The position numbers and the translations under genes were made by a program. A stretch of 64,000 nucleotides of DNA from Fulvivirga marina (GTDB taxonomy: Bacteria; Bacteroidota; Bacteroidia; Cytophagales; Cyclobacteriaceae), in the NCBI RefSeq assembly GCF_016775155.1, contig NZ_JAEUGD010000042.1:62001-126000 (forward strand), in the 5' to 3' direction. Positions 8,346 to 27,840 of this stretch are shown here, piece after piece (the first letter of the stretch is position 1; the number at the start of each line of letters is the position of its first letter). The notes under the pieces are model-generated. The model had not been told where the DNA came from. It worked only from the letters and a program-made list of their open reading frames with translations, and searched no databases.

Positions 8346-8394
8346 TTAATCAACAGATGATCTGGTGATAGGCTTTTAAAGTATTGAGACCAAT

Positions 8395-8432
8395 AAAAAG
8401 CCCCTGAAATGTCGACATTTCAGGGGCTTTTT
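8395..8432. terminator. Bidirectional Rho-independent terminator
   Basis: A perfect 38-bp palindrome (AAAAAGCCCCTGAAATGTC and its complement) lies between the convergent methyltransferase and DUF2723 genes, with A and T runs at the two ends so that it works in both directions. Confidence 0.92.
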
Positions 8433-8451
8433 ATTTTTTGCCATACAGGTA

Positions 8452-11412: not shown

Positions 11413-11441
11413 CGGAGTTTTTGTTATTATATTTAGAATGG

Positions 11442-11471
11442 CGAAAATAACGAACTATGCACAATTAACAA
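11442..11471 (-). promoter_or_regulatory. Promoter of the DUF2723 gene
   Basis: On the minus strand TTG (11469-11471) is followed after 19 bases by TATTTTCG (11442-11449), close to the TAnnTTTG consensus, about 30 bases before the ATG. Confidence 0.5.
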
Positions 11472-11556
11472 TGCATATTGCATATTAACCCGATGTTGGA
11501 ACTTTCAAAGATCGGATTTATTGTATGCAGTGTGGCGTTCTAAAAGAATGGCCTGA

Positions 11557-12195
11557 TTATTTGTAAACCAAAAGGTAAAAGCCTAACCACAACAGAAAGA
11601 ATAGAACGTACGAAGAAAAAACTATAGCATAGGCAATATTTTTTTGTTTTTTTGCTTTATAATGTATCCCCCCTACTAAGATGAACCAATATATAACTTC
11701 AAAAATGTTCAATGCTTTTAGAGGGTAAAACCACCGATTGTCTAGTTCGTAAGGGTTGGCCAGGTTTATTAATGAAAGAGGGTAGAAGGCGCGTATTTCG
11801 AACAGGTTAGGGTCCATATCAACGAAAAGAAACCATAGGACTTTCAGCAGTTCTGGAATTAGAAATATAGCCTCTGCGATTACTGCTACCTGCCACGTTT
11901 GACTATAGGTGATCTTATAGCCGAACATAAAACTCCCGATCCATATTACGAAGCTGATCACTGTAAACTTGAAAAGGTAAATCAGAGGAATACTAAAATA
12001 TTGCAGGGCATTGATGGTATGAAATATGCCCATCTCCCCTTGCGAATCGAGTACTTCAAATGCGGCAGTTTGGTTTTCAATGAAGGTCTTTTTTACAATT
12101 AACAGAAATAATGAGGCAAGGCAAAGGACAAGGAAAAATACCCATTTATTTGTGTCAAATATGGAATGATCTTCAGCGTTTTCAGTGGAATTCAT
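11557..12195 (-). CDS. Uncharacterised multi-spanning membrane protein
   Basis: A 212-residue protein with about five hydrophobic segments (roughly residues 18-37, 67-92, 102-124, 160-177 and 186-209) and a short charged N-terminus. I recognise no catalytic motif; the overall pattern recalls Yip1-like small membrane proteins, but that is weak. It lies 144 bases upstream of the DUF2723 gene on the same strand, and the DUF2723 gene has its own promoter-like element, so they may not be cotranscribed. The coding call rests on the continuous hydrophobic pattern and an ATG start. Confidence 0.7.
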   Translation of the reverse strand: MNSTENAEDHSIFDTNKWVFFLVLCLASLFLLIVKKTFIENQTAAFEVLDSQGEMGIFHTINALQYFSIPLIYLFKFTVISFVIWIGSFMFGYKITYSQTWQVAVIAEAIFLIPELLKVLWFLFVDMDPNLFEIRAFYPLSLINLANPYELDNRWFYPLKALNIFEVIYWFILVGGIHYKAKKQKNIAYAIVFSSYVLFFLLWLGFYLLVYK

Positions 12196-12248
12196 ATAGA
12201 CAAAAGTGGTATTGTGGTTTATTTAGGCCAAATTAGTTAAACCTCTTG

Positions 12249-12364
12249 ATTTTTTAACACTCATACAGAACGAAAGGAGAACTTTTATCTGTTCATAGGA
12301 ATGATTGTTGGTGAGGACAAGGCTAGAAATAAATAATAATTTATCTTTAACCGATAATAGTGAA
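12249..12364. repeat. 116-bp direct repeat, copy 1 (upstream of wecB)
   Basis: Aligns without gaps to 13813-13928, with about 14 differences in 116 positions, most of them in the first 43. The most conserved core includes ACAGAACGAAAG, CTGTTCATAGGAATGATTG and TTATCTTTAACCGATAAT. Where copy 2 has the ATG of the TPR gene, this copy has GTG (12360-12362), followed by unrelated sequence. Confidence 0.93.
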
Positions 12365-12411
12365 TTTATGGGTTGTAATTAACGTAAACCCTTACATCAT
12401 ACACGTCTACT

Positions 12412-13530
12412 TTGGTGAATTTGAATATTTTAATAATAATTGGCACACGGCCGGAAGCAATTAAGCTTACTCCTCTATATAAAGCCTTAAAAGCCGAGAA
12501 GAATGTAAAGGTACATCTACTAAGTACTGGTCAACATAAAGAACTTATAGAACCTATTTGGGAACTGTTTGATGTTAAGCCTGATATTTCTCTTAATGTT
12601 TTGTCTGGTAATCAAAGCCTTTCTTCATTAACTAGTCATCTTCTCAATCAAATCAATGAAGTTGTAGAGAGGGAAAAATATGATTACATCATTGTTCAGG
12701 GAGATACAACCTCTTGCATGGTGGGGTCGCTGGTTGCTTTTTATAACCGTATAAAAGTGGCACATGTTGAAGCAGGGTTAAGAACTTTTAATAAGTATTC
12801 TCCATACCCGGAAGAAATTAACAGGAAGATTACATCTGTCATAGCTGATATACATTTTTCCCCAACTGAAAGTGCAAGGCAAAACCTTATTAACGAAAAG
12901 GTCCAGGGAGAGATTATAGTTACAGGCAATACCGGCATTGATGCGACTCTCTCAATGTTGGAAGTGATAACAGCCAATAAAGTGCGCTTTAATCAAAAAT
13001 TTCCTTTTCTGTTTTCAAATGAGGGTAAGAAAATGATCTTAATTACCGGACATCGTAGGGAGAATATAGGCACTCAATTTTCTGAAATTTTTGCGGCTAT
13101 TAAGGAACTGTCTATAGAAAACAGTGATTTAATTTTTGTTTTTCCTGTTCACTTGAACCCAAATGTGAGGAAACAGGTCAGTGAATGGCTTGAGGGTATT
13201 TCTAATATATATTTGATTGATCCCGTTCGGTATGACGAAATGATATTTTTAATGGATTCGTGTTATTTAATTATGACTGATTCCGGAGGTATACAGGAGG
13301 AGGCTCCCTCACTAAATAAACCGTTGTTAATATTGAGAGATACTACTGAAAGACCTGAAGGGGTGGCTGCATGTTGTAGTGTTCTGGCTGGGGTAAAAAA
13401 ATCAAGTATTAAGGAGGCCTTTTATGCTATTCACAACAATCAGAAGACATATATGAGAATGGCGCGTGCAATTAATCCCTATGGTGATGGAAAAGCAGTA
13501 CGAAGAATAGTAGAACACCTGTTAAAATAA
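12412..13530 (+). CDS. wecB: UDP-N-acetylglucosamine 2-epimerase (non-hydrolysing)
   Basis: Interconverts UDP-GlcNAc and UDP-ManNAc, giving an amino-sugar donor for surface polysaccharide. The 372-residue protein has the N-terminal GTRPEAIKL, STGQHKE, QGDTTS, HVEAGLRT, PEEINR, TGNTGID, ITGHRRENIG and the UDP site DSGGIQEEAP. After RDTTERPEGV the usual A-G-T is replaced by AACC; the end NPYGDGKA is normal. The start is uncertain: TTG at 12412, GTG at 12415 and TTG at 12421 are all in frame and no ATG is near. The gene is bracketed by the two copies of the 116-bp repeat and separated from the TPR gene by 393 bases, which suggests it came in or moved as a separate segment. Confidence 0.92.
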   Translation: MVNLNILIIIGTRPEAIKLTPLYKALKAEKNVKVHLLSTGQHKELIEPIWELFDVKPDISLNVLSGNQSLSSLTSHLLNQINEVVEREKYDYIIVQGDTTSCMVGSLVAFYNRIKVAHVEAGLRTFNKYSPYPEEINRKITSVIADIHFSPTESARQNLINEKVQGEIIVTGNTGIDATLSMLEVITANKVRFNQKFPFLFSNEGKKMILITGHRRENIGTQFSEIFAAIKELSIENSDLIFVFPVHLNPNVRKQVSEWLEGISNIYLIDPVRYDEMIFLMDSCYLIMTDSGGIQEEAPSLNKPLLILRDTTERPEGVAACCSVLAGVKKSSIKEAFYAIHNNQKTYMRMARAINPYGDGKAVRRIVEHLLK

Positions 13531-13923
13531 TTTTTTATTCAGAGAGTGATCATACTAGAAAAATGACATATGGATACTTGTGATCGAGTATAGCTATCCA
13601 TGAATGTGATATACGTGATTCATCAAAACATAACCATTGTTAAGCATAAAACAACCTTTTGACAGCCTATAATGTCAGCCTTGTTTTTCAGCTGTTCCCC
13701 GATTCACCAGCCTTGGAATACTTCGTTCTTTTTGATCCTTATTTTGCTTACTAATACAAGTTAGGAAGCGTATCTATGAAGAGGAAATAATAGATGTTGA
13801 GTGGGATGTCTAATTTTTTACCACGCAGACAGAACGAAAGAAGGCTATTTATCTGTTCATAGGAATGATTGTTGGAGAGGACAAGGTTAGAAATAAATAA
13901 AAATTTATCTTTAACCGATAATT
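13531..13923. other. Long non-coding gap between wecB and the TPR gene
   Basis: No convincing open frame or RNA gene is seen on either strand in the first 280 bases. There is a weak inverted pair (TGGATA near 13571, TATCCA near 13595). The last 111 bases are copy 2 of the direct repeat. No clear terminator follows wecB. Confidence 0.6.
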
Positions 13924-13928
13924 ATGAA
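13813..13928. repeat. 116-bp direct repeat, copy 2 (leader and start of the TPR gene)
   Basis: Second copy of the repeat at 12249-12364. It runs through the ATG (13924-13926) of the TPR gene and stops matching two bases later. A TATCTTTA sequence (13906-13913) resembles a -7 element; if used, the mRNA would be nearly leaderless. Confidence 0.93.
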
Positions 13929-15105
13929 GCGGATTCTAATCATACTGATGTGTTCATTGGGCCTTACTGTAGCATTTGCTCAAAGCAACGATGCTGCCAA
14001 TGATAATAAGCCTATTATTCTTATATCGGATATGCAATTGCAGATTGATGTAAATCAGGCAATGAACGATCTGTATAACTTTAAGTTTGACAAAGCAGAG
14101 AAACAATTTAGATGGCTAAAACAAAAATATGGCTGGCACCCGCTGCCTTACTTTCTGCTGGGTTTGAGTGAGTGGTGGAAGATCATGCCAAACGTAAGCA
14201 ACACAGAGTATGACGAGAGGTTTTTGGCCTATATGGATACAGTGATCCATATCTCTGAAAGGCTTCATGAAATGCCCAAGCATGAAGTTGAAGCATCATT
14301 CTTTTTGGCTGCAGCATACGGTTTTAAGGGGAGACTTTACTCTAGCGAAGAACGAAAGAATTGGACCAAGTCTGCTTTTGCAGGCAAAAATGCCCTTAAG
14401 TATATGAAGGAAAGTCAAGGCATGCACGACCTAAGCCCTGAGTTGCTATTTGGAGATGCTTTGTACAACTACTTCTCTGTTTGGGTTCCTGAAAACTACC
14501 CTTTACTAAAGCCGATACTGGCCTTCTTTCCAAAAGGTGATAAGGAGTTGGGAATCAAGCAGCTCCGGGAGGTTTCTTACAATGCCTTTTATACCCGTAC
14601 CGAAGCGATGGTATTCCTCATGAGGATTATGGGGAGTTATGAGAATAATAAAAGGAAGGCACTTCAAATAGGAGGGTATCTGCATCAAACCTATCCGGAC
14701 AATCCGTATTTTCATAGATATTACGCTCGTTTGCTATATACCTCAGGTAAGTTCAGTACTACCAAACCTGTTGCAGAATCCATTTTGGCTAGGATTGATA
14801 GTGGTATGATCGGCTATGAGGCTACCAGTGGCCGGTATGCAGCTTTTTTTTTAGGGCAAATCCATGAAAGTAGAAAGGAATACCAGGAAGCCAAGGAGTA
14901 CTATTTAAAAGCCAAGGGGTTTTCAGAGCAGATTGATGCTACAGATACCGGCTATTACCTTTACTCACTGCTATCCTTGGGAGAGATCTATCAGCAGGAA
15001 GGAAATGAAAAAGAAGCGAAAAAATACCTAAAACTGGTTAAAAAGCATGCCAAGCGCAGTGATGATGTTCATGAAAAAGCGCGTGAGCGATTGAGGGAGT
15101 TTTAG
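13924..15105 (+). CDS. Secreted TPR-repeat protein
   Basis: A 393-residue protein with a signal peptide (MKRILIILMCSLGLTVAFAQ, cleavage about residue 19/20), so periplasmic or outer-membrane associated. The body is alpha-helical with TPR-type pairs, clearest at about residues 48-75 (FKFDKAEKQFRWL) and 315-385 (EYQEAKEYYLKAK, GNEKEAKKYLKLV). TPR proteins act as scaffolds; the partner is not evident. It stands between the epimerase and the flippase genes in the same direction, with its own promoter-bearing gap downstream. The start codon lies within the 116-bp repeat, which supports this ATG as the original gene start at this site. Confidence 0.85.
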   Translation: MKRILIILMCSLGLTVAFAQSNDAANDNKPIILISDMQLQIDVNQAMNDLYNFKFDKAEKQFRWLKQKYGWHPLPYFLLGLSEWWKIMPNVSNTEYDERFLAYMDTVIHISERLHEMPKHEVEASFFLAAAYGFKGRLYSSEERKNWTKSAFAGKNALKYMKESQGMHDLSPELLFGDALYNYFSVWVPENYPLLKPILAFFPKGDKELGIKQLREVSYNAFYTRTEAMVFLMRIMGSYENNKRKALQIGGYLHQTYPDNPYFHRYYARLLYTSGKFSTTKPVAESILARIDSGMIGYEATSGRYAAFFLGQIHESRKEYQEAKEYYLKAKGFSEQIDATDTGYYLYSLLSLGEIYQQEGNEKEAKKYLKLVKKHAKRSDDVHEKARERLREF

Positions 15106-15206: not shown

Positions 15207-16526
15207 TTGGTTGTCACCATATCGGGAAGTGGTTTGGGCTTTCTAATTGGCTTTGCGTTCACACCTTTGATAGCTAGAGTATATCAGCCTGAGGCGTACG
15301 GATTGTTTGCATTGTTTAATGCCTTCGCAAGTAACATCACAATTATTTCTACCCTTAACCTTACTAATGCATTTATTTTACCAAAGAATAATGCTACGTT
15401 TTATGCACTATTTAAATTCACAATTTTTAGTGTAGCCATCACCACTATTATTTCATTCTTGGCCTTCTTGTTTCTTGGGCAGTGGATACTTGAAGCATTT
15501 AATGCAACGGAACTGGGGGCTTTTGCTCTCCTGATTCCGGTTTTTGTGTTTTTAAGTGCCATTTCTCAAGTTTTGAATGCATGGAATGTTAGAATTAAAG
15601 CTTTCGCAAGAAGTGCTACTTCAAAAGCAGGATCCATAGCAGTAGCGAAAAGCACTACATTAGGGTACGGATATATGACCGACGGATTTATCGGAGGTCT
15701 GATTATAGGTGAATTTATAAATGTATTAGCTAATAGCCTAATATTGTTGAGCCGCCGAATTAGAAGAAAGATGATACTAATCTTTAAGCAGAAGAGTTTG
15801 CCGGTTGCGGCAGCAATATCTGAGTACCGTGAATATCCCTTATATGCCTTGCCTGCAAATTGGCTCTATGCGTGCGCTGACCAGGTTCCTATCTATGGAC
15901 TTACGTATTACTACGGAGCAGAGAGCACAGGCTATTTTTCTTTTGCTTACAGTCTTTTGAATATACCACTACTTTTGATCGGTCAGTCTACAGCAACAGT
16001 TTTTCTTCAAAAGGCTGCCGAAACAGATCAAGCAGAACCGGGGAAACTTCAAGGTATAACAGTACAATTATTTAATCGCTTAATATACTTTGGTTTAATA
16101 CCTTTTGCTATTTTGGGAGTATTTGGTGATTATATATTTTCGGTATTTCTGGGAGAAGAATGGACTAAAGCCGGGGTGTTTGCCAGCTACTTGGGGCCAT
16201 ACTTTATGTTTAGGCTTGTTGTATTTCCCATCATGTCTATCTATAGAGTAAAAAGAAAGGAAAAAACATTTCTAAGGTACGCTGCAGCTTCTCTTATGGT
16301 TCTGCTTCTAGTACTATTTTTATCAGTGCAAATTTTTTCTGTCGATGGTTTCATAGTAGCTTTTAGTACGTTTGCAGCCCTTAATCATATAGTACTTGCC
16401 ATTCTCATTTTTAGAATGCTCAATGTCACCAATATTGTGACTATAATGATTAAAGTCGTTTTAATAGTCTTAAGTACATTTGCCCTGTTGTTTGCATTTC
16501 GTTTTTTCATATTATACCTAATTTGA
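15207..16526 (+). CDS. Wzx-type polysaccharide flippase
   Basis: Moves lipid-linked repeat units across the inner membrane. The 439 residues form about 12 hydrophobic helices, with the family N-terminal pattern GLGFLIGFAFTPLIARVY followed by AYGLFALF and the paired-domain layout of polysaccharide_synt/MATE-like proteins. The first usable start is TTG 15207, which begins inside the first helix. The frame stays open to 15153 and encodes IKRIGQRLLVKGSFLQN just before, which looks like the usual basic amphipathic N-terminus, so true translation may begin at ATT 15156. It is the first gene of a closely packed run; the next gene begins 4 bases after its stop. Confidence 0.88.
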   Translation: MVVTISGSGLGFLIGFAFTPLIARVYQPEAYGLFALFNAFASNITIISTLNLTNAFILPKNNATFYALFKFTIFSVAITTIISFLAFLFLGQWILEAFNATELGAFALLIPVFVFLSAISQVLNAWNVRIKAFARSATSKAGSIAVAKSTTLGYGYMTDGFIGGLIIGEFINVLANSLILLSRRIRRKMILIFKQKSLPVAAAISEYREYPLYALPANWLYACADQVPIYGLTYYYGAESTGYFSFAYSLLNIPLLLIGQSTATVFLQKAAETDQAEPGKLQGITVQLFNRLIYFGLIPFAILGVFGDYIFSVFLGEEWTKAGVFASYLGPYFMFRLVVFPIMSIYRVKRKEKTFLRYAAASLMVLLLVLFLSVQIFSVDGFIVAFSTFAALNHIVLAILIFRMLNVTNIVTIMIKVVLIVLSTFALLFAFRFFILYLI

Positions 16527-16530
16527 GTGA

Positions 16531-17751
16531 ATGAAGAATTTGTTAGTAGTTAGTGTTTCAGCTCCACCGAAGGGGGGAGCTGAAAGTTTACAAGTGGATA
16601 GGTATTTATCTTATTTAAAACACGCCTTTAATATTTCTCTATTAACAACAAAGCCGCCACGATCTGGGTGGGCGAAGCTTGATCCTGATTTGGTTTCTAA
16701 CTTGCCTGATATTAAAACATACGAGTTGAACGGTTTTTACAACCGTTACTTTAGGTACTTTCTCCGGCTTTTTTTTAAGTCCGGTGCAGCAAAACTTGAC
16801 TATGATTTTTTATTTCCAAGGCAATGGAGAAGGGCTACCAAAATGCTTAAAGATAAACCTGATGTAATATATTCAAGGTCGTTGCCCTTCAGCTCAGCCG
16901 TTATGGCTCGTAAACTTGCAGCATATTACAAGGTGCCTTGGGTGATGCATTTGAGCGACCCATGGGTTGGGAATCCGTATCTGGCAGATTCACATAGGTC
17001 AACACATGTATTGAACGAAGCTCTTTGTATAGAACAGGCAAATATGGTGTCGTTTACCACACGTCAGGCGCTAGAGTATTATACACGTCGCTATCCAACA
17101 CATGCTACCAAATTTTTTATAACACCTAATGTTTACAAGGAAGAGGGGAAGCCTGAGAGAAAAAGTGATTTAACATCGAAATTGGTTTTTACACATACAG
17201 GTAACTTTTACAGTGAGAGAAACCCTGATTTTTTTCTACAAGCCCTCGAAGCAATAGATGAACAACATCCAGGTCTTTTAAAAAATATTCAGGTTAATTT
17301 TGTGGGCAATGCAGATGAGTATTCTGAGGAGCGTATAAGAACATGCCCGCTTGATCAGGTGGTTTTTTATGGCCCCAAGTCTTATGCAGAGTCTGTTGCA
17401 ATGCAAAATGATTCTGATGTTTTGGTTGTGATAGACAAACCGGTTAAAAAAGAAGAAGATACACTGTTCCTGCCCTCAAAGGTACTGGATTATATGGTTA
17501 CGGGCCGTTACATACTCGCAATTACTGATGATACTTCTTGTACATCTGGATTAGTCTCGGAAGGATTCGGAGTTGCGTGCGGATATGACGATTTAAATAA
17601 GTTAAAAAATGCAATAATGCAATTGATACAAGCTCATCATAACGGCGACTATGCTTACTTTAAAACCCAAAGGCCCCATCCTGCATATAGTGCAAAAGTC
17701 AATTCAGGGGAACTCATTTCAAAATTAAATACGCTTGTATGTGCGGAATAG
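16531..17751 (+). CDS. Glycosyltransferase, GT4-like (GT-B fold)
   Basis: Predicted to add one sugar to the lipid-linked repeat unit at the cytoplasmic membrane face. The 406-residue protein starts with VVSVSAPPKGGAE, a GT-B N-terminal loop, has HLSDPWVGNPY in the N-domain and a C-domain with FTHTGNFYSERNPDFFLQAL and LPSKVLDYMVTGR, where the donor nucleotide binds. The sugar specificity cannot be read. It starts 4 bases after the flippase stop and overlaps asnB by 13 bases, so it is translationally coupled to both. Confidence 0.85.
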   Translation: MKNLLVVSVSAPPKGGAESLQVDRYLSYLKHAFNISLLTTKPPRSGWAKLDPDLVSNLPDIKTYELNGFYNRYFRYFLRLFFKSGAAKLDYDFLFPRQWRRATKMLKDKPDVIYSRSLPFSSAVMARKLAAYYKVPWVMHLSDPWVGNPYLADSHRSTHVLNEALCIEQANMVSFTTRQALEYYTRRYPTHATKFFITPNVYKEEGKPERKSDLTSKLVFTHTGNFYSERNPDFFLQALEAIDEQHPGLLKNIQVNFVGNADEYSEERIRTCPLDQVVFYGPKSYAESVAMQNDSDVLVVIDKPVKKEEDTLFLPSKVLDYMVTGRYILAITDDTSCTSGLVSEGFGVACGYDDLNKLKNAIMQLIQAHHNGDYAYFKTQRPHPAYSAKVNSGELISKLNTLVCAE

Positions 17752-19616
17752 CAGGTCTTTATGGGTATGGCTTAGTAGAACAGCAACACCTGAAGCGAAT
17801 AACCCGAACGCTATCTCATCGAGGACCAGATGCGGAGGGGTATTTTATAGATGAACAGGTTGCATTAGGTCACAGAAGATTGGCAATAATTGACTTGGAG
17901 CCCCGGGCAAACCAACCCATGACGTATGAGGAATACACAATTGTGTTAAATGGAGAGATATATAATTATCGAGAAGTTCGGCAGGAGCTTAAAGGATTAG
18001 GTTATAGTTTCAGTTCGGAGTCTGATACTGAAGTGCTTTTAAAAGCGTTTTCTAAATGGGGTATTGATGCGGTGGCTAAACTGGTTGGTATGTTTAGTTT
18101 TGCTATTTACAATAGCAAAACCAGAGAGCTGTGTTTGGTTCGGGATCGTCTTGGTGTGAAGCCATTGTATTATCATTATTCAAATGGCAGGTTGATTTTT
18201 GGTAGTGAGATAAAAGTAATTTCAGAGCATTTTGACAGATCCTTAGAGGTTGACAAAAGCGGTTTGTACTCTTATCTCCGTTTTGGATATTTCATAGGAG
18301 AGACAACCATATTTGCACAAGTGAAGAAAGTGCCTCCGGGTTCATACATCAGAATCACGCCTAACAATTTATCTATACAGCATTATTGGTGTCCTGAGGG
18401 GTTTCTACAAGACAAAAAGTCTTTTAAGAATATTGATTCTGCTGCTGATGAGCTTGAGCCTCTTTTAATAGAGGCCTTTAAATACAGGATGGTTTCTGAT
18501 GTCCCAGTAGGTACATTCTTTAGTGGTGGAATTGATAGTTCGCTGCTTGTGGCCATATTAAATAAGCACTATGGGAAGATCATCACATGTACAATCGGTT
18601 TTGATAAAAGCCAAAATAACGAGGCAGAATATGCCAGAAAGATTGCTAAACATTTAGGGACCATTCATCATGAACGTATTTTAGGGTTTTCGGAAGCACG
18701 GGATCTCTTCTCTTCCTTTTATGACGTTTATGATGAACCGTTTCACGACACTTCGGGGATTCCTACGTCAATAGTTACCGAATTGGCGAAGGAAAGAGGA
18801 ATTAAAGTTGTGTTGTCTGCTGATGGCGGAGATGAGTTGTTCGGGGGATATCCCGTATACAAGAAATTATCGAGCTTTTATAATCGTGTAAGATCAATAC
18901 CTGCAATTTTCAGGCAAACTGCTAGTAGAATAGTAGAATTCATGGGGGTAGATTCCTCCGGTTTGTACTATAGAAATATGGGACAAAAAATGGGCAAGGT
19001 TGCAGAATTATTAGAGTCGGAGAGCGCGGAGGAGGTTTATGAGGCGATAATAAGTACAATTTCCCATAAGGAAGCAATGAAGCAAATTACCGGCGAACTA
19101 ACTTTTAATAAAACCAGATACAATAACAATGGTCTTCATCCTATGGAACGGGCTATGCTTTGGGATCTAAAATATTTTTTACCTGATGATTTATTGGTGA
19201 AAGTAGACCGGGCAACAATGTATCATGGAATTGAAGGAAGAGAGCCTTTTCTTGATCATAGGGTAGTAGAGTTTGCCTTACGTTTACCACTTGACTATAA
19301 AATCAAGAATGGGGATCAAAAAATAATTTTGAAAAAGATTTTGGCTCGTTACATGCCTCCAGAGCTATACGAAAGGCCAAAACAAGGCTTCAGCATTCCT
19401 TTAGCAGATTGGTTTGCGGAATATCTTGATGAAGGCTTTCAAAAGAAGTTTTCGGGGGCTCGACTGGCAGAGCGGTTTCCAATGAACGAGAAGGTTGCCA
19501 AGAGGTCAATTGACAACTACTTTAGGTACAGAAAAAAACAGCAAGAGTATAATACCCTCCATGCGTTTAAACTTGCAGGGTTACTTATGTGGTACGATAA
19601 ACATGTTGGAAAATGA
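17739..19616 (+). CDS. asnB: AsnB-type glutamine-hydrolysing amidotransferase
   Basis: Class II glutamine amidotransferase plus ATP-pyrophosphatase domains in 625 residues. Cys2 of MCGIAG is the glutaminase nucleophile; HRGPDAEG, NGEIYNY and SESDTEVLL follow. The synthetase half has the PP-loop FFSGGIDSS near residue 260, LSADGGDELFGGY and GREPFLDHRVVEFA. In polysaccharide loci such enzymes often amidate a sugar carboxylate rather than make free asparagine; the position between two glycosyltransferases, overlapping the first by 13 bases and the second by 4, supports that reading, but it is an inference. The length matches the family. Confidence 0.92.
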   Translation: MCGIAGLYGYGLVEQQHLKRITRTLSHRGPDAEGYFIDEQVALGHRRLAIIDLEPRANQPMTYEEYTIVLNGEIYNYREVRQELKGLGYSFSSESDTEVLLKAFSKWGIDAVAKLVGMFSFAIYNSKTRELCLVRDRLGVKPLYYHYSNGRLIFGSEIKVISEHFDRSLEVDKSGLYSYLRFGYFIGETTIFAQVKKVPPGSYIRITPNNLSIQHYWCPEGFLQDKKSFKNIDSAADELEPLLIEAFKYRMVSDVPVGTFFSGGIDSSLLVAILNKHYGKIITCTIGFDKSQNNEAEYARKIAKHLGTIHHERILGFSEARDLFSSFYDVYDEPFHDTSGIPTSIVTELAKERGIKVVLSADGGDELFGGYPVYKKLSSFYNRVRSIPAIFRQTASRIVEFMGVDSSGLYYRNMGQKMGKVAELLESESAEEVYEAIISTISHKEAMKQITGELTFNKTRYNNNGLHPMERAMLWDLKYFLPDDLLVKVDRATMYHGIEGREPFLDHRVVEFALRLPLDYKIKNGDQKIILKKILARYMPPELYERPKQGFSIPLADWFAEYLDEGFQKKFSGARLAERFPMNEKVAKRSIDNYFRYRKKQQEYNTLHAFKLAGLLMWYDKHVGK

Positions 19617-20818
19617 AGGAAAAGATTTTATTATTAATTACCAACCTTGACTATGGTGGTGCTCAGAGGTCGTTTTCCAAACTTAGTTATGAACTGGATG
19701 ATCGATATGAACTATATGTATCTGTTTTTAATACATATGATGGCATTGCATTTCCGATGAAAGGAACATTAATTGATTTGGACATTCCTGGATCATCTCA
19801 TGTTCCAGGCAAGATTTACAATTTTTTTAAGAGAATAGTCAAGCTTAGAACAGTAAAGAAAAAGCTCGGAATTGACATTTGTATAAGTTTTTTGGAAGGG
19901 GCTGACTATGTTAACGTACTCTCTGGGATTGGCGAAAGAAAAATACTAAGTATCCGCGGCTCCAAAAGCCATGATGAAACGATTCAAGGCTGGATAGGGG
20001 TTGTCAGAAGAAAACTTTTTATGCCTCTCCTGTATCCTTTTGCAGATCACATTATAGCGGTAAACGAGGGAATTGTGCGTGAATTACGTGAAGAATATGG
20101 TGTTAAAAAGGTACCGGTTGATGTTGTACACAATTGGTATAATATTGAGGAGCTGGAAAATTTTTCCAAGGAAGAAATTAGTGATTCGGAGTCAGCAATA
20201 TTTGACTTGCCTGTCATATCTGCTTTTGGTAGGCTCGCCATAGAAAAAGGGTACGATCATCTCATCAAAATGTATTCACAACTTCGGAAACGAGTGCCTT
20301 GTAAGCTCTTGCTCGTAGGGGATGGCAATTTTAAACAGAATCTTTTTGAGTTGTGTAACACTTTGAACCTCAAATACTATGATTGGGCCTCTGATACACT
20401 TCATGAGAAGTACGACATATACTTCCTTGGCTATAAAGAAAATCCTTTGAAATTTGTCAGCCGGTCCACTGTTTTTGTGATGACATCTTCCTCAGAGGGT
20501 TTTCCCAACGCGCTTGCTGAGGCTATGATTTGTGGTGTTCCGGTTGTATCAACCGATTGCCCCAACGGACCAAGGGAAATCTTGGCCCTAGATCAAAATA
20601 CACAGCCGAAACTAAAAGTGGAGGACTATGTAGATTTTGGTATCTTAATGCCCACTTTTGATGTAGCATCTTCGGTAGAGGTGTGGGTGAGTGTGCTGAA
20701 CCGATTGCTCGAGGATGATGATTTAAGAAAGGATTATGCCAAGAGAGCAGGGAAAAGGATACGCCAATTTACCAGAACTCTCATTCTAAATAAGTGGTTT
20801 AATGTCATTGAATCGTAA
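19613..20818 (+). CDS. Glycosyltransferase family 4
   Basis: A 401-residue GT-B enzyme with LLITNLDYGGAQRS at residues 6-19, the acceptor-side glycine-rich loop, and the C-domain ISAFGRLAIEKGYDHLI followed by SSSEGFPNALAEAM and CGVPVVSTDCPNGPREIL, the EX7E-type donor site. Closest in pattern to GalNAc/amylovoran-type GT4 proteins. It overlaps asnB by 4 bases (ATGA) and its stop codon is directly followed by the ATG of the acyltransferase gene. Sugar specificity is unknown. Confidence 0.9.
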   Translation: MKEKILLLITNLDYGGAQRSFSKLSYELDDRYELYVSVFNTYDGIAFPMKGTLIDLDIPGSSHVPGKIYNFFKRIVKLRTVKKKLGIDICISFLEGADYVNVLSGIGERKILSIRGSKSHDETIQGWIGVVRRKLFMPLLYPFADHIIAVNEGIVRELREEYGVKKVPVDVVHNWYNIEELENFSKEEISDSESAIFDLPVISAFGRLAIEKGYDHLIKMYSQLRKRVPCKLLLVGDGNFKQNLFELCNTLNLKYYDWASDTLHEKYDIYFLGYKENPLKFVSRSTVFVMTSSSEGFPNALAEAMICGVPVVSTDCPNGPREILALDQNTQPKLKVEDYVDFGILMPTFDVASSVEVWVSVLNRLLEDDDLRKDYAKRAGKRIRQFTRTLILNKWFNVIES

Positions 20819-22264
20819 ATGCTGTTCAATTCCTTAGATTATTTGCTTTTTTTACCACTGGTAGTGGGACTTTATTATTCGTTACCCATAAGGTTCCGGT
20901 GGATCTTGCTTTTAGCTGCGAGCTATTACTTTTATATGTGCTGGAAGGCTGAGTACATAATTTTGATATTCTTGTCAACCTTAGTCGACTATCACATTGC
21001 CCGGCAAATATTTAGCGAAGCTAAGAAAACAACGAAGCAAATTCTGTTAGGAATTAGTTTAAGCGTAAATCTTGGAGTGTTGATAGCTTTCAAGTACTAT
21101 AATTTTTTCAGTCATAACATAAATGAAGTGCTTTCGACTGTCAACGTTCTTGGGCGGTTGCCTTATTACGATCTTTTACTACCAGTTGGCATCTCATTTT
21201 ATACATTCCAAACACTTAGCTATACAATAGACGTTTATCACGGAAGGATACAGCCTCAGAATCATTTTGGTAAATTTGCTGTATTTGTTTCTTTTTTCCC
21301 TCAATTGGTTGCAGGTCCTATAGAGAGAGCTAGCCATCTTATCCCCCAGCTTGATAAAAAGGTTGAGTTTAGCTACCGCAACGCTGTCAGCGGTTTAAGG
21401 CGAATTCTCTGGGGCATGTTTAAGAAAGTTGTAGTAGCAGACCGGTTGGCAATTATCGTGGATCATGTATACGGAAGCCACGAAGAACAAACAGGGTTTT
21501 CTTTATTGATAGCTTCCTACTTGTTTGCCTTTCAGATCTACTGTGATTTTTCCGGCTATTCCGATATCGCTATTGGGTCAGCACGGCTTTTAGGTATTGA
21601 TTTAATGGAGAATTTTCGCCGACCATATTTTTCGAGGTCCATTAGTGAGTTCTGGAGCCGCTGGCATATATCCCTGTCTACGTGGTTTAGGGATTATGTT
21701 TACATCCCACTCGGTGGTAACCGGGTAAGTATGAGACGGGTGTATATCAATATACTTATTGTTTTCTTAGTAAGTGGACTTTGGCATGGAGCGAACTGGA
21801 CGTTTGTAGTATGGGGTGCCCTACATGGGGTTTATCTAATTTTTGAACGGGTTCTGAAAAACAAGGTCAGGTTCAATAACAGCTTGTTTGTTCAATCGGT
21901 GCAAATTTTAATCTGTTTTCATTTGGTAGTTTTCGGCTGGATATTTTTTAGGTCGGAGTCGGTTGAGCAGTCAATTTCAATTATAGCTTCGATCTTTGAT
22001 GTGGAACAGTGGCGGGTAAGCTTCAGTTATTTCGAGCAATTGAAAATACATAAACCGGTAGTTACTATTCCAAAATTTTTGACTACACTATGCATGCTTA
22101 CTCTGTTGATAATTGGGGATATGATTTTATCCTACTTGAAGCTAAAAAAAGCCTTTTTTGCTCTCAGTCGACCCTACAGGTGGGGAGTATATATCATTGT
22201 TATTTTACTTATCGTTTTGGTTGGCAATCATGGTGAGTCCGAATTTATTTACTTTCAATTTTAA
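20819..22264 (+). CDS. MBOAT family O-acyltransferase (AlgI-like)
   Basis: Membrane-bound O-acyltransferase that brings acyl groups, usually acetyl, across the membrane to a polysaccharide. The 481-residue protein has about ten hydrophobic helices and the AlgI family blocks LPVGISFYTFQTLSYTID, FFPQLVAGPIER, SRWHISLSTWFRDYVYIPLGG and LWHGANWTF, in which His323 is the expected catalytic residue. Its ATG abuts the stop of the preceding gene, and its own stop abuts the ATG of the SGNH-like gene, an arrangement usual for AlgI/AlgJ-like pairs. Acetylation is the likely chemistry. Confidence 0.92.
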   Translation: MLFNSLDYLLFLPLVVGLYYSLPIRFRWILLLAASYYFYMCWKAEYIILIFLSTLVDYHIARQIFSEAKKTTKQILLGISLSVNLGVLIAFKYYNFFSHNINEVLSTVNVLGRLPYYDLLLPVGISFYTFQTLSYTIDVYHGRIQPQNHFGKFAVFVSFFPQLVAGPIERASHLIPQLDKKVEFSYRNAVSGLRRILWGMFKKVVVADRLAIIVDHVYGSHEEQTGFSLLIASYLFAFQIYCDFSGYSDIAIGSARLLGIDLMENFRRPYFSRSISEFWSRWHISLSTWFRDYVYIPLGGNRVSMRRVYINILIVFLVSGLWHGANWTFVVWGALHGVYLIFERVLKNKVRFNNSLFVQSVQILICFHLVVFGWIFFRSESVEQSISIIASIFDVEQWRVSFSYFEQLKIHKPVVTIPKFLTTLCMLTLLIIGDMILSYLKLKKAFFALSRPYRWGVYIIVILLIVLVGNHGESEFIYFQF

Positions 22265-23212
22265 ATGAGCAAAAGAAAACTTTTTATAGTGCGGGTGTTA
22301 CTTTTCTCAGCAATTTGTTTTGTTGTGCTACTCTCTATCAGCTCCTTTTTAAAAATTGGGCATAAGTATGTGGATAGAAGGCCAAATATTAAACTTTACC
22401 GGGTTTTTGATAGAGCAGATATTAATGCTCAATTACTAATATTAGGTTCCTCTATAGCTGAAGCGGCATTTAACTCGGGTATTATTGAAGAACAGACGGG
22501 CCTAAAGACTTACAATGCGGCGTTATCGGGAAGAAAAATTCAGGATTGGAGACCGGTTGGATATCAACTTTGTCATGCTGACACAGTTCCTGATATAGTC
22601 ATATTGGATGTGTTTCCAAATATGCTTGACTGGTATGGGAATATTTATCATCCTCAGGACTTTTATCCATACTTGTTGAATCCGAATGTAAAAGAAGCAC
22701 TATCTGAGATTAATAGCAGATATTCGAAATTGGTAACAGTTCCCTTCTACGAACTGACAATGCTGAATTCTAATTATATAAAGGATGCTTTTCAGGCGTG
22801 GGTGACTGGATTAGAACAACAGGGTTATGATTCTCTAGAATTCGTACAAACAGAGGGATCCGATTTTGATCCGAAGGATCTTCAGCATTTCATTCCTGTT
22901 GCCGCGGATCCATTGTCCGTTAAAGCTTATTATGAGTTGATTTCCTGCTTTAATCAACGTGGGACCAGAGTAATATTTATTGCACCACCCATGTATTCAC
23001 CAGGTATGAGTGCTTATGTAAGATATGGCGAGGTAAAACAAATGGTCAATCAAATAGCAGATTCGACTAACAGCCTATTTTTGGATTACTCGAATCTAGA
23101 GAGCTTTTCTGAAAAAAAATTGTACTTTTTTAATAATACGCACTTAAATGGAGAAGGTGCTGCCGCTTTTTCCAGAAGGTTTTCATTAGACATTAAACCA
23201 TTAACAAATTGA
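22265..23212 (+). CDS. SGNH-hydrolase-like partner of the MBOAT protein
   Basis: A 315-residue protein with one N-terminal transmembrane helix (about 9-29) and a periplasmic domain. The block LLILGSSIAEAAF puts G-S-S at 61-63 in place of G-D-S, so Ser63 is the likely nucleophile; a C-terminal NNTHLNGEG block contains His293, the position of the usual DxxH motif but with Asn for Asp. This fits the AlgJ/AlgX-type proteins that pass the acyl group from an MBOAT protein to the glycan. The gene abuts the MBOAT gene and overlaps the pyruvyltransferase gene by 4 bases. The weak catalytic motif leaves some doubt about activity. Confidence 0.75.
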   Translation: MSKRKLFIVRVLLFSAICFVVLLSISSFLKIGHKYVDRRPNIKLYRVFDRADINAQLLILGSSIAEAAFNSGIIEEQTGLKTYNAALSGRKIQDWRPVGYQLCHADTVPDIVILDVFPNMLDWYGNIYHPQDFYPYLLNPNVKEALSEINSRYSKLVTVPFYELTMLNSNYIKDAFQAWVTGLEQQGYDSLEFVQTEGSDFDPKDLQHFIPVAADPLSVKAYYELISCFNQRGTRVIFIAPPMYSPGMSAYVRYGEVKQMVNQIADSTNSLFLDYSNLESFSEKKLYFFNNTHLNGEGAAAFSRRFSLDIKPLTN

Positions 23213-24351
23213 AAAGTAATCAAAATAGGGCGAGCATTTTAATTCGTGGCTACTATGGTTTTGGGAATTTTGGAGACGACATCCTACTACTTACCACGTT
23301 TAATGTTATTCGTGATGCCTTACCAAATGCGGAAGTTCAGGTGTTTTCAAATGCACCGATACCGGGGTATATATGTAAATTATTAGGCACCGATATTGGG
23401 ATTATTGATTATAAGGCCAATAAGCACTTTGATTTTTTAATTGATGGAGGGGGAGGAGTGTACTTTGACTTTGCAACCGGTACAACTTTAAGCGCAGTGA
23501 GAAACAAAGTAATAGATATAATAGGTCATAGCACGTTTTCCTCCGTGCTAAACTTTTATAAGCGCTTCAAGGGTACGCCGGGCGTAACAGCGACGTATCA
23601 ACTGGGAGTCGGTATTGGTGTTGGGACATTTACGAAAAGTTCAAATAGGTACCCGGATAGTGTTAGGAAACTCTCCGCATATAATATTTTGATGGTCAGG
23701 GATCCCGATAGCCTGTGTAACTTAAAAAAGATTAAGTTCGGAGGGGAAGTCGGTGTGTTTTCTGACCTGGCATTCTTGACAGATTATTGGTTGCCCAAAG
23801 AGCTTAAGAAAAATCAAAAAAAGCGAGGAAAATCAATAGGGTTTGTAGTGCGGGTGTGGAATCAACCCGAATATTTTGACTGGTGCTTATCTAGGGCTGA
23901 ATTGCTTGCCTCTAGGGGCTATGAAGTTTCTTTTTTTTGTTTCGAAAAGAATTCGGATGCTGAAATTGTTGAGCGGTTGTCCACGAAACCTTACCAATTA
24001 CATGTCTGGTCTCCTCATGAGGGGTCTTTACAAGTTTATCTGTCACATATAGCTGACTTGGACTTAATTATTTCAATGCGCGCTCATGGCACCATAGTGG
24101 GAGCATGCCTAGGGGTTCCTTCAATAAATCTTGATATTGAACCAAAGTTGAAAATCGTATCTGAAATGTTCCCTCGGTCTTCTGTTTTGCTAAACATTGG
24201 AGTGACCGAACCGAAGTTTATCGAATCAATTGAAGAAATGCTGCAGCGAAGGGTTTATTTAGAGAGTGAGGTTCAGAAAAACAGAGCTATCATGATTAAA
24301 GGGAAGGAAAAATTATGTCAGTTTCTTTTAAGCAAAAATAGGAACAGATGA
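23209..24351 (+). CDS. Polysaccharide pyruvyl transferase family protein
   Basis: Expected to transfer pyruvate from phosphoenolpyruvate to a sugar hydroxyl pair, giving a negatively charged ketal on the glycan. The 380-residue protein has the family N-terminus RGYYGFGNFGDD (residues 13-24), the DGGGGVYFD block around 77-86, and the C-terminal SMRAHGTIVGACLGVPSINL block. The start is TTG at 23209, overlapping the preceding stop, with no ATG nearby. It overlaps the next gene by 4 bases. Some members of this family act on other acceptors or have unknown roles. Confidence 0.88.
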   Translation: MKSNQNRASILIRGYYGFGNFGDDILLLTTFNVIRDALPNAEVQVFSNAPIPGYICKLLGTDIGIIDYKANKHFDFLIDGGGGVYFDFATGTTLSAVRNKVIDIIGHSTFSSVLNFYKRFKGTPGVTATYQLGVGIGVGTFTKSSNRYPDSVRKLSAYNILMVRDPDSLCNLKKIKFGGEVGVFSDLAFLTDYWLPKELKKNQKKRGKSIGFVVRVWNQPEYFDWCLSRAELLASRGYEVSFFCFEKNSDAEIVERLSTKPYQLHVWSPHEGSLQVYLSHIADLDLIISMRAHGTIVGACLGVPSINLDIEPKLKIVSEMFPRSSVLLNIGVTEPKFIESIEEMLQRRVYLESEVQKNRAIMIKGKEKLCQFLLSKNRNR

Positions 24352-25472
24352 GACCAACAATTGTAATAATGGATAACAGCATGGGTACCACTGGAGCGTT
24401 CAATGCTATCAGGTATAATGCACTTGATCTCCGGGTTGATTTTAACTTTGTTTTTGTTATTCCAGCAACCAGCAGTAATGATGAACAACTGCGAAAGGAA
24501 GGTTTTCAAGTATATAAGCTGGACATGGTCGAAATTAACAGGAGCTTAAGGAATAACTTGAAATATTTGCCCATGCTCCTTATTAATACCATAAAGCTAT
24601 TTAAAATTTTAAAAAGACACCATGCCCGGGTGGTTCATATGAACGATATATATAACCTGTTGGGTATTACCGCGAAGCTGCTTTATAGGTATGAGTTGAT
24701 TGTACATGTTCGTAGACTACAGAATTCATTCCCTAGACCACTTTTTAAATTTTGGATGTTTTTAAACAGTTTGTTTAGTCAAAAGTTAATAGCAGTTTCA
24801 TTTGCAGTGGCAAGGGAAAACCCTTCACCAAAACTGGAGGTGATATACGATAGACTTCCATTATCAGAGAACCATGAAAAATACAAGGTGAGGAAAGATA
24901 CGGCGACTTTTAATATGCTTTTTCTGGCCAATTATACCTTTGGAAAAGGGCAACAGCATGCAATTTCGGTTTTGCAACGATTAGTCGAAGACGAGAATAC
25001 CCCTGATGTTTCGTTAACCTTTGCGGGCGGGGACTTTGGAAACGAAAATAATCTACGGTTTAAAAATGAGCTGAGAAGGCAAGTTGTTACATTAAAGCTG
25101 GAGAAATATATCACCTTCAAGGGCTATATAAGTAATGTGGAAGAGGAAATGAAGAAATATGACTTGGTACTTAACTTCTCAGAGTCCGAATCTTTTTCGT
25201 TTACTTGTGCAGAGGCATTGTTCTACGGAGTTCCTTTGGTGGCGACCGATAGTGGAGGGCCTGCCGAGCTTTTTGAACATGGAAAATCAGGTTTCCTTGT
25301 TGAGAGGGGAAATTATTCTCAAATGGCGGATTATATCAAACTTTTATCACGAGATTTTCAATTAAGGAAAGAGTTTAGTGACAACGGGAGAACCTATGTC
25401 CGGGAGAAGTTTTCATTAGAAAAAACTTCTCTTCAAATAAAGCAACTATATTATAGACTGACCAATGGGTAA
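24348..25472 (+). CDS. Glycosyltransferase family 4
   Basis: A 374-residue GT-B enzyme. The N-domain begins IVIMDNSMGTTGAFNAI and has a VHMNDIYNLLG segment; the C-domain has NMLFLANYTFGKGQQHAI, then SESESFSFTCAEALFYGVPLVATDSGGPAELF, the donor-binding E-x7-E block. It is therefore likely a retaining transferase of the polysaccharide repeat unit. It begins in the stop codon of the preceding gene and overlaps the next by 8 bases. Confidence 0.88.
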   Translation: MRPTIVIMDNSMGTTGAFNAIRYNALDLRVDFNFVFVIPATSSNDEQLRKEGFQVYKLDMVEINRSLRNNLKYLPMLLINTIKLFKILKRHHARVVHMNDIYNLLGITAKLLYRYELIVHVRRLQNSFPRPLFKFWMFLNSLFSQKLIAVSFAVARENPSPKLEVIYDRLPLSENHEKYKVRKDTATFNMLFLANYTFGKGQQHAISVLQRLVEDENTPDVSLTFAGGDFGNENNLRFKNELRRQVVTLKLEKYITFKGYISNVEEEMKKYDLVLNFSESESFSFTCAEALFYGVPLVATDSGGPAELFEHGKSGFLVERGNYSQMADYIKLLSRDFQLRKEFSDNGRTYVREKFSLEKTSLQIKQLYYRLTNG

Positions 25473-26541
25473 AAAAATTTTATTTGTCACCCCTTATCCG
25501 AAAGACACTGCCCCAAGTCAGAGACTCAGGTTTGAGGCTTTTTATGCACAGTTCGAAGCGCAAGGGTTTCAGGTAGAAATGAAGCCTTTTGTTTCTTACT
25601 CATTTTGGAATGTGATATATACTAGAGGCAATTTACTCAGAAAAGTAATTTATACATTAGAGGGATATTTAAAACGTATTTTGCTGCTATTCTCTCTGAG
25701 AAAGTATGATTTGGTTTACATACATCTGTGGGTTGTTCCTTTTGCACCTCCTATATTTGAATGGCTCTTCACAAAAATAGCCAAGGCAACAGTGTATGAT
25801 ATTGATGATATGCTTTATGTCGGAGACACAAGTAGGTTCAACAAGGCAGTTTCTTTTCTAAAAAGCAAAAGTAATCCTTTGTATCTGTTAAAGAACTGCG
25901 ATCATGTTATTGTTTCAACGAAGGCAAACTATGATAAGGCTAAGGAATTGAATAAATCGGTTACTAATATCCCCGTTTGTATTGATGTTGAGCGGTACAA
26001 AGCAGTACATAAGAGCAATGACAAGGTAGTGGTTGGCTGGACCGGTAGTAGAAGCACATCCAAATATTTGTACTTATTAAAGCCTGTTTTTGAAAAGCTT
26101 GTTAATAGGCCGGATGTGGAGTTATTAGTTATCGGTGACCAAGACTATAAGATTGATGGAGTTCCAATTACTGCTTTGAAGTGGAGTGCGGAAACCGAAG
26201 TTTCTGATATTAACAGAATTGATGTTGGATTGTATCCCCTTCCGGATGAGAAATGGGTATTAGGAAAAGGGGGAGGAAAAGCTTTACAGTATATGTCTTT
26301 GGAAATTCCCGTTATAGCAACTGCTGTTGGGGAGAACCTTGGAATCATTGATGACGGGATAAATGGATTTTTAATTCAGCCAGGAGATACCCAACAATGG
26401 TATAGCAAGATACAGGAGTTAATTGAGAGCAAGAAATTGAGGCTGCAGTTGGGTAAGAATGGTAGAAAAAAGGTCGAGCATTCTTTTTCCATTAAAGCTA
26501 ATGTCTTTAACTATATCAGTGTCTTTGATTCACTCATCTGA
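25465..26541 (+). CDS. Glycosyltransferase (GT4-like)
   Basis: A 358-residue protein with GT-B features: the N-terminal ILFVTPYPKDTAPSQRLRFE, the mid-protein VYDIDDMLYVGD, the C-domain VVVGWTGSRSTSKYL, and the donor block GGGKALQYMSLEIPVIATAVGENLGI. It is the last plus-strand gene of the coupled run and its 3' end overlaps the convergent membrane protein gene by 12 bases. The sugar added is not known. A role as the last transferase of the repeat unit is a guess from position only. Confidence 0.85.
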   Translation: MGKKILFVTPYPKDTAPSQRLRFEAFYAQFEAQGFQVEMKPFVSYSFWNVIYTRGNLLRKVIYTLEGYLKRILLLFSLRKYDLVYIHLWVVPFAPPIFEWLFTKIAKATVYDIDDMLYVGDTSRFNKAVSFLKSKSNPLYLLKNCDHVIVSTKANYDKAKELNKSVTNIPVCIDVERYKAVHKSNDKVVVGWTGSRSTSKYLYLLKPVFEKLVNRPDVELLVIGDQDYKIDGVPITALKWSAETEVSDINRIDVGLYPLPDEKWVLGKGGGKALQYMSLEIPVIATAVGENLGIIDDGINGFLIQPGDTQQWYSKIQELIESKKLRLQLGKNGRKKVEHSFSIKANVFNYISVFDSLI

Positions 26542-27840
26542 AATTTCCTTGTATTTAGACAGAAATAACAGCCCTGCACAATAAAAAGGTAAAATGGGAA
26601 TCTTGTATCGGACTAGTGTTCCAAAGTTGAAGCTATTTAGTCCTACACCAACAGCAAGTCCAAGCGAGAACACTATCGAGAAAAGTATGAGGGGTTCCTT
26701 GAATAGAATTTGGATACTTTTAAAAAAGCCAGGTTTAATAAAAATATAGAGCGACAAAGTCAGGAACAGAAGTGATTCAATCGCGGATAGGAGCATTAAA
26801 GGGTTTCTTATCTCCCATAGGAACGGGCGGTAAAGCGTAACAAGTATTGCTTGAGGCGTAAGTCTCACAATGCTTTCAAAAGATCCATCCAGTTCACCAA
26901 GATAATAAGCTGACCCCTCTTGTTGCTGACTTATAGCGTACAAGTATTCAGCATTAATTTTAGTTCTCTGGCCTATATTATCCAAGTCGTATTTTTCGCT
27001 TCCTTCTGTAACAGTGATTGCAGCATAAAATGCCAGACCTAACCCAAATGCCGCAAATAAAGGCTTTGAAATATTTCTAATTAGAGCGGATTTAATTCTC
27101 TTGTTGTTTTCCAGAAATATCCAAAATAATGCAGGGGGTACAAAAGCCAGTAAAATGTAGATTCTTATTGTATACAAAATATACAGGCAGATTATTAATA
27201 CAATTACAGATATCAAAATCCTTTTTTTTTCAATAAAGAGTGAATGAAAAGAGTGGAACAGCCAACCTAATGCACCTAGCATGATAGTGTCTTTCATCAG
27301 ACCACTTCCCCAGAATATGACTGATGGAATGAAAAATATAGCAATCGCTGAATATAATTTTAAGGATGGATAAATTTTGTTAAAAGTATTAAATAATGCC
27401 CACGAACCGGAGAAACTAATTAGCATAAACATCAGGGCAATAGATGAGTATGTGTCGAAACATAGGTAGCCGAAAAGACCAGATAATTTTATAATAAACA
27501 TTTCTGGGGGATTTCTATACCAGTACAGCTTAGTACTGTATTCAAATGTTGATGATTCAAATTCCCCATTTGATAATAGCAACTGAACGCCGGCCAAAAA
27601 GTTTTCTCGTAGAGCCGATGCAACAATCTTTCCTTGATTATAATAGTTGAGGGTATCGCCGGCACCATAGTAGAATTGGTAGATAATGCCAATCATCAGC
27701 GCTCCAATGACTTTTAATGTAAGAGAGGGGAATAATATTTTTTTTGAAAGTTCATCATTAAGTGTCAGGTAGTATAGGTAAAACGCTATATATATTATAA
27801 ATAGCAAGATCGGGGTAAATAAAAAATCACTAATGCTCAT
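26530..27840 (-). CDS. Polytopic membrane protein, candidate polysaccharide polymerase (Wzy-like)
   Basis: The 436-residue protein has about ten hydrophobic helices, a periplasmic-size loop around residues 60-115 with YYGAGDTLNYYNQGK, and a later segment SAIAIFFIPSVIFWGSGLMKD. Wzy polymerases have almost no conserved sequence, so the assignment rests on topology, size and position in a Wzx-containing cluster that otherwise lacks a polymerase. It is the only minus-strand gene in the locus; it converges on the preceding glycosyltransferase with a 12-base overlap of coding ends. Alternatives are an unrelated membrane glycosyltransferase or an oligosaccharide ligase. Confidence 0.6.
   Translation of the reverse strand: MSISDFLFTPILLFIIYIAFYLYYLTLNDELSKKILFPSLTLKVIGALMIGIIYQFYYGAGDTLNYYNQGKIVASALRENFLAGVQLLLSNGEFESSTFEYSTKLYWYRNPPEMFIIKLSGLFGYLCFDTYSSIALMFMLISFSGSWALFNTFNKIYPSLKLYSAIAIFFIPSVIFWGSGLMKDTIMLGALGWLFHSFHSLFIEKKRILISVIVLIICLYILYTIRIYILLAFVPPALFWIFLENNKRIKSALIRNISKPLFAAFGLGLAFYAAITVTEGSEKYDLDNIGQRTKINAEYLYAISQQQEGSAYYLGELDGSFESIVRLTPQAILVTLYRPFLWEIRNPLMLLSAIESLLFLTLSLYIFIKPGFFKSIQILFKEPLILFSIVFSLGLAVGVGLNSFNFGTLVRYKIPILPFYCAGLLFLSKYKEISDE

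Follow-up and report, generated by a model that had tools for sequence, protein, structure and literature searches.

Direct repeats bordered 10-18% of the variable segments in four bacterial data sets, and one or another genome often had the empty site (PMC2884548, in the part of that paper available). Promoter capture via tandem duplication or deletion is presented as an established process in the available part of PMC11111574, which cites Anderson and Roth 1978. The locus described here lies in a 64,000-nucleotide stretch of Fulvivirga marina DNA, the whole of which was analysed and is referred to as the window. A segment carrying wecB has direct repeats at both edges, and a one-copy empty site was found in Fulvivirga kasyanovii (G001), a congener of the window, and in G014. 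The repeat is a leader that is duplicated and joined to wecB, is single in relatives and has predicted promoter activity. The wecB segment and a second, probably promoter-bearing, leader were very probably gained in the window's lineage; copy 1 of the leader would then drive wecB and copy 2 the TPR protein gene and, if co-transcribed, its cluster.

Table. Features of the wecB locus, in window coordinates
Feature	Coordinates	Strand	Remarks
212-aa gene, left divergent neighbour of the leader	11557..12195	-	hydrophobic by eye; no Pfam/NCBIfam match
Leader copy 1	12249..12364	+	old TPR start ATG now GTG; left flank continues as in relatives
-7-like box of copy 1, TATCTTTA	12342..12349	+	consensus from the available parts of PMC6847099 and PMC9723704
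Short stretch from leader copy 1 to wecB	12365..12420	+	without significant homology to the TPR start
wecB, predicted non-hydrolysing UDP-GlcNAc 2-epimerase	12421..13530	+	TIGR00236; start probably TTG; ORF open from 12412
Non-coding right part of the segment	13531..13812		no significant match to the rest of the genome or the neighbouring genes tested
Leader copy 2	13813..13928	+	runs on into the TPR gene, the arrangement of relatives
-7-like box of copy 2, TATCTTTA	13906..13913	+	consensus from the available parts of PMC6847099 and PMC9723704
TPR protein gene	13924..15105	+	signal peptide by eye; marks the left edge of the variable polysaccharide cluster
Polysaccharide cluster: flippase, glycosyltransferases, asnB-like, MBOAT, pyruvyl transferase	15207..26541	+	

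The two leader copies were aligned by a repeat search over 116 bases without a gap, with 103 identical positions (89%) and a spacing of 1564. A first-pass annotation of the window had proposed this gapless alignment, and its coordinates were exact. Its count of about 14 substitutions was corrected to 13; it had placed them mostly at the 5' side, and the first 36 positions hold 8, the following 74 hold 3 and the final 6 hold 2. Copy 2 was, as it had described, the leader and start codon of the TPR gene, and copy 1 carried GTG at the place of that ATG. It had also suggested searching the whole genome with the leader. With copy 2 as query against the 6.78-Mb genome, matches were obtained to itself (E 4.8e-55) and to copy 1 (E 2.8e-37), and a third copy was absent at E ≤ 0.001. 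Anchored extensions detected no homology beyond the repeat at the right edge, where 174 and 332 of 400 shuffles scored as high, or at the left edge (353 and 233 of 400). Local matches beyond the edges, such as the 10 bases ATGAAGAGGA, were not clearly above shuffles (60 to 500 of 500 in six tests). Two readings were rejected on these grounds: a leftover of the TPR start beyond the repeat edge and, within 13531-13812, another partial leader.

The segment between the copies (12365-13812, 1448 bp) contained wecB as its only ORF of at least 80 aa. The first-pass annotation had seen neither a transposase nor terminal inverted repeats, and both statements held: no other such ORF was present, and no inverted repeat had arms at both segment edges. 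The wecB product matched TIGR00236 with 427.9 bits (cut-off 210.15) over residues 2-367, passing the curated equivalog cut-off at full length, and Epimerase_2 with 372.4 bits. Its best solved relative was 1f6d (E 1.2e-103, end-to-end alignment); chain 1f6d_A bears the name UDP-N-acetylglucosamine 2-epimerase and is presumably the E. coli enzyme. By family, the product is predicted to be a UDP-GlcNAc 2-epimerase that converts UDP-GlcNAc to UDP-ManNAc. Only TTG or GTG codons were available as starts, and TTG at 12421 is probably the one used because this puts the first residue of the protein opposite residue 1 of 1f6d_A in the alignment. The 282-bp tail behind wecB had no long open frame. Its next best match in its own genome reached only E 0.07, and its sole match in 14 other congeners was of 31 bases in G014 (E 8.5e-4).

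No close relative of wecB was found among 58 related genomes (best 52% identity) or among 395 genomes drawn from the phylum (best 50%). A single-protein scan of a large genome collection gave no confirmed match as a wecB donor, and no donor of a leader-wecB unit was present among the 58 genomes searched with the leader. A tree was built from 26 sequences, which we chose from the wecB matches in the 58 relatives and the 395 phylum genomes. The window's wecB grouped with those of G009, G030, G031, G106 and the long-branched G034 (96/91) and was set apart from the WecB of the other 8 congeners in the tree.

The TPR gene was matched in 54 of 58 genomes (E ≤ 1e-15). In 28 of the 58, F. marina included, it lay close to the 212-aa gene, and this flanking pair was divergent in 27 and tandem in one (G023). 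A long gene stood between the divergent pair in two genomes: in the window it is wecB, in G031 a DegT/DnrJ/EryC1/StrS aminotransferase gene; the other 25 of the 27 had none. ORFs were inspected in six gaps (G002, G009, G012, G030, G031 and G033), and a frame longer than 80 aa was present in G031 only; by coordinates, the remaining gaps were of about 300 bp or less. The pair was kept in 13 congeners, and wecB was absent from between the divergent genes in all 13. Window positions 8392-12364 and 13829-15104 aligned to one unbroken stretch of F. kasyanovii, with both leaders mapping onto the same bases. G014 had the same single-leader arrangement, and G002 had a diverged single leader between the pair; neither carried wecB there. 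Each of these three genomes had one clear orthologous place for the leader, and a clear leader match was absent in the other congeners. An exact 23-base core of the leader was scanned against a collection of 84,980 species. One record was returned, Fulvivirga kasyanovii JCM 16186 (contig NZ_SMLW01000499.1); the scan was limited to exact matches, and it missed G014 although the identical 23 bases occur there.

Because 13 congeners lack wecB at this position, and F. kasyanovii, G014 and G002 have a single leader, the comparison indicates that the window's lineage acquired wecB and one leader copy by insertion. The first-pass annotation had offered, as one of its readings, that the epimerase segment was inserted next to, or exchanged at, a duplicated leader and had pointed to the same region in relatives as the place to look; the relatives bear this out. 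In the 849-bp gap of the pair in G012, a 72-nt repeat occurs twice at 86% identity (L126:903-999 and 1347-1450, 444 bp from start to start).

In the last 100 leader positions the two copies differed at 10, and at each of these F. kasyanovii and G014 matched one copy or the other. Six of the changes were private to copy 1 and four to copy 2, in interleaved order, and the single leader of F. kasyanovii and G014 is best read as the ancestral state. Over these positions each copy differed from the F. kasyanovii leader at 4 or 6 sites, against 10 between the copies. Both copies shared five states against F. kasyanovii and G014, all within the first 16 positions. Judged by eye against G002, two of the five were derived in the window, one was derived in F. 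kasyanovii and G014, and two were ambiguous. The duplication is thus placed after the split on few sites, because only two of the five shared states are clearly window-derived.

An insertion that predates the split from F. kasyanovii and G014 would be compatible with the empty site if those genomes later lost wecB by recombination between the leaders, with one clean leader left behind. Recombination of direct repeats would recreate exactly this site, and one study of four bacterial data sets ascribed as much as one-fifth of the microdiversity to recombination between short repeats on either side of a segment (PMC2884548, available part). Over all 116 positions, moreover, the copies differed by 13, close to the 13 and 12 by which they differ from the leader of F. 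kasyanovii. However, F. kasyanovii and G014 agree with the other copy at every private site of either copy, and since these sites are interleaved, a single crossover between the two copies could not have produced their leader. Several losses would also be required, because G002 and ten more congeners lack wecB there too. We consider the older insertion unlikely.

Copy divergence was 0.12 (JC), and the fourfold-site distance between the window and F. kasyanovii was 0.41 for the TPR gene and 1.02 for a 986-aa gene. The event appears to lie within the window's lineage, yet it is not fresh. Its age is uncertain because the copies have diverged more from each other than from F. kasyanovii in the last 100 positions, whereas the fourfold-site distances are far larger, and any date is rough because the leader is under constraint. 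Of the recent insertion that the first-pass annotation had mentioned, the insertion stood and the recency was not borne out, given the 10 differences between the copies.

Bacteroidota promoters carry TTTG at -33 and TAnnTTTG at -7 (PMC6847099, available part), and the -7 box of F. psychrophilum spans -12 to -5 (PMC9723704, available part). Both leader copies had TATCTTTA, which agrees with TAnnTTTG at every fixed letter except the last, where the base is off-consensus. From the F. psychrophilum spacing, the transcription start of copy 1 is predicted near 12354, and the predicted 5' UTR of the TPR gene is about 6 nt, which is unusually short. TTTG was absent at the expected -33 in both copies (by eye). 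In 6 of 13 congeners the TPR ATG was preceded by TATCTTTA at a distance of 18-19 bases, and the other 7 lacked the box in the counted range; in G003, outside the count of 6, TATCTTTG was seen by eye 17 bases before an ATG. The pattern counted was TAnnTTT[AG], with A or G allowed last, and the range was chosen after the data had been seen. In 2000 mononucleotide shuffles the number of genomes with the pattern in that range averaged 0.25 and never exceeded 3, a significance that is overstated because the range was set post hoc and the genomes are related. Of the 13 copy differences, 3 lay in the central 74 positions (binomial P 0.003, post hoc), a scarcity that fits constraint on both copies.

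Because both copies keep TATCTTTA, which is near the Bacteroidota -7 box and is conserved in 6 of 13 congeners, the leader probably contains a promoter. This promoter would now be doubled, one serving wecB while the TPR gene keeps its own. The leader appears to work like a promoter, for which the sigma-A class is a candidate assignment. The first-pass annotation had suspected a regulatory signal in the conserved core, and the -7-like box at the same place in those congeners agrees with it. A structured RNA leader was disfavoured, as the two copies folded little more stably than shuffles (z -1.24 and -1.02). An 11-codon ATG frame, MIVGEDKxRNK, was present at 13865-13900 and 12301-12336 and also in F. 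kasyanovii; it was set aside, being broken in G002 (by eye) and upstream of the predicted transcription start. In G004, G006 and G007 (L119, L120, L121), a -7-like box just before the TPR start was seen by eye to lie within a perfect 14-base palindrome, AAAGATATATCTTT.

The leader might instead be a regulatory element dispersed before many genes, a reading that the first-pass annotation had also offered. Two copies before two genes would suit it, but they are the only two in the genome at E ≤ 0.001, short of the many copies of a dispersed repeat or MITE. F. kasyanovii, G014 and G002 have one clear place each, and the exact-match core scan returned the F. kasyanovii locus alone, so that this reading is scarcely credible. 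It is somewhat less implausible, though still very improbable, that a recombinase recognising the leader moves the segment as a mobile element or gene cassette. Direct repeats do bracket one gene, and the G031 aminotransferase gene occupies the equivalent place; but wecB is the sole gene encoded, terminal inverted repeats are absent, no direct repeat of at least 18 nt surrounds the G031 gene, and the repeat looks like a promoter. At 116 bp it is also far longer than the usual target-site duplication. Neither a dispersed element nor a transposon is supported.

The polysaccharide cluster of the window was unlike the roughly 8 kb (F. kasyanovii) and 5.5 kb (G014) downstream of their TPR genes. 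The glycosyltransferase gene at 16531-17751 was matched in 5 of 58 genomes, F. marina included (E ≤ 1e-30). Three of the four others had a wecB of the same clade within 1.1 kb of it: the two ORFs overlap in G009, the matches are 9 bp apart in G030, and 1.1 kb separates them in G031, where both lie inside the cluster. The fourth, G028, had no wecB match on the contig of its glycosyltransferase gene. In the window the two genes are 3 kb apart with the TPR and flippase genes between them, whereas in G009 and G031 wecB lies inside the cluster, downstream of the TPR gene. The wecB sequences of these two genomes and of G030 are 47-52% identical to that of the window. Because wecB is found near the same glycosyltransferase gene in G009, G030 and G031, it appears to belong to this type of cluster, and in the window it would have been either displaced to the front of the cluster or separately acquired. 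No donor or close relative was found, and identities of only 47-52% favour neither.

A 436-aa gene with no Pfam match stands directly after the TPR gene in F. kasyanovii, G014, G002, G009 and G031. In the window it is inverted, at the far end of the cluster (26530-27840, minus strand), where it is still convergent with the same glycosyltransferase gene as in G009 and G031 (window 25465-27840). Rearrangement in the cluster extends beyond the wecB segment. Just past the cluster, 28944-32489 encodes a large, probably secreted protein that carries PKD domains as well as a Por_Secre_tail sorting domain.

On the favoured account of a gain in the window's lineage, the 116-bp leader most likely contains the TPR promoter and runs through the start codon, at the left border of the polysaccharide cluster. 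After the split from F. kasyanovii and G014, the 1448-bp wecB segment would have landed where the promoter meets the TPR start, and a second leader with it. Copy 1 would then drive wecB, and copy 2 the TPR gene plus, if co-transcribed, the downstream cluster genes, so that the two would share one response. UDP-ManNAc would be made by WecB and used by a glycosyltransferase encoded in the cluster, probably that at 16531-17751. Promoter activity, co-regulation and the sugar pathway are what we infer from sequence comparison. The observed order could have arisen by a kind of promoter capture, in which a tandem duplication spanned leader to wecB, the genes in between were then deleted from the first copy, and the other wecB was lost. 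Leader-wecB DNA integrated by a single crossover, or in a merodiploid-type event, would give the same order, and either route may apply.

In G031 (L132:932-2047) the stop codon of the DegT-family aminotransferase gene overlaps the TPR start (ATGA), and no bracketing direct repeat of at least 18 nt was found. From its position this gene is taken as a second, independent sugar gene at the junction. It is doubtful, though conceivable, that the promoter/TPR junction is a loading site where sugar-nucleotide genes, such as wecB here and the aminotransferase gene in G031, repeatedly come under the promoter of the polysaccharide locus, and that in this lineage the 116-bp repeats let wecB go and so switch the polysaccharide. 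If this were true, the polysaccharide would toggle between two forms via wecB loss.

The locus offers a clear case in which a polysaccharide cluster gains a gene plus a copy of its own probable promoter while relatives keep the ancestral state, and it shows how such clusters gain and rewire genes. It predicts that wecB and the cluster, sharing one promoter sequence, should be co-regulated, and the two repeats could permit loss of wecB at a low rate. No report of this locus appeared among the literature matches listed from one open library, which is not proof of absence. The insertion is ordinary in kind, a new example of a lineage-specific gain of a polysaccharide sugar gene with a duplicated probable promoter. 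The comparisons that follow draw on the available parts of the papers cited. As with the segments of PMC2884548, a small one-gene segment is flanked by direct repeats and is absent from relatives with one copy; 66-94% of the repeats there are shorter than 30 bp, whereas the repeat here is 116 bp and resembles the promoter of the next gene. As in promoter capture (PMC11111574), a gene would have come under a nearby host promoter by way of duplication or deletion, but here only 116 bp remains duplicated, the copies are 13 substitutions apart and the route is a reconstruction. Pneumococcal transformation merodiploids (PMC3784515) likewise indicate that incoming DNA can leave a duplicated stretch of the recipient, although the tandem duplication there is 107.4 kb and apparently unstable. 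In the meningococcal capsule island (PMC5349592), polysaccharide genes were inserted beside a duplicated piece of the recipient, a remnant galE; that island is 24 kb with inverted repeats, whereas the F. marina segment is a single gene between direct repeats.
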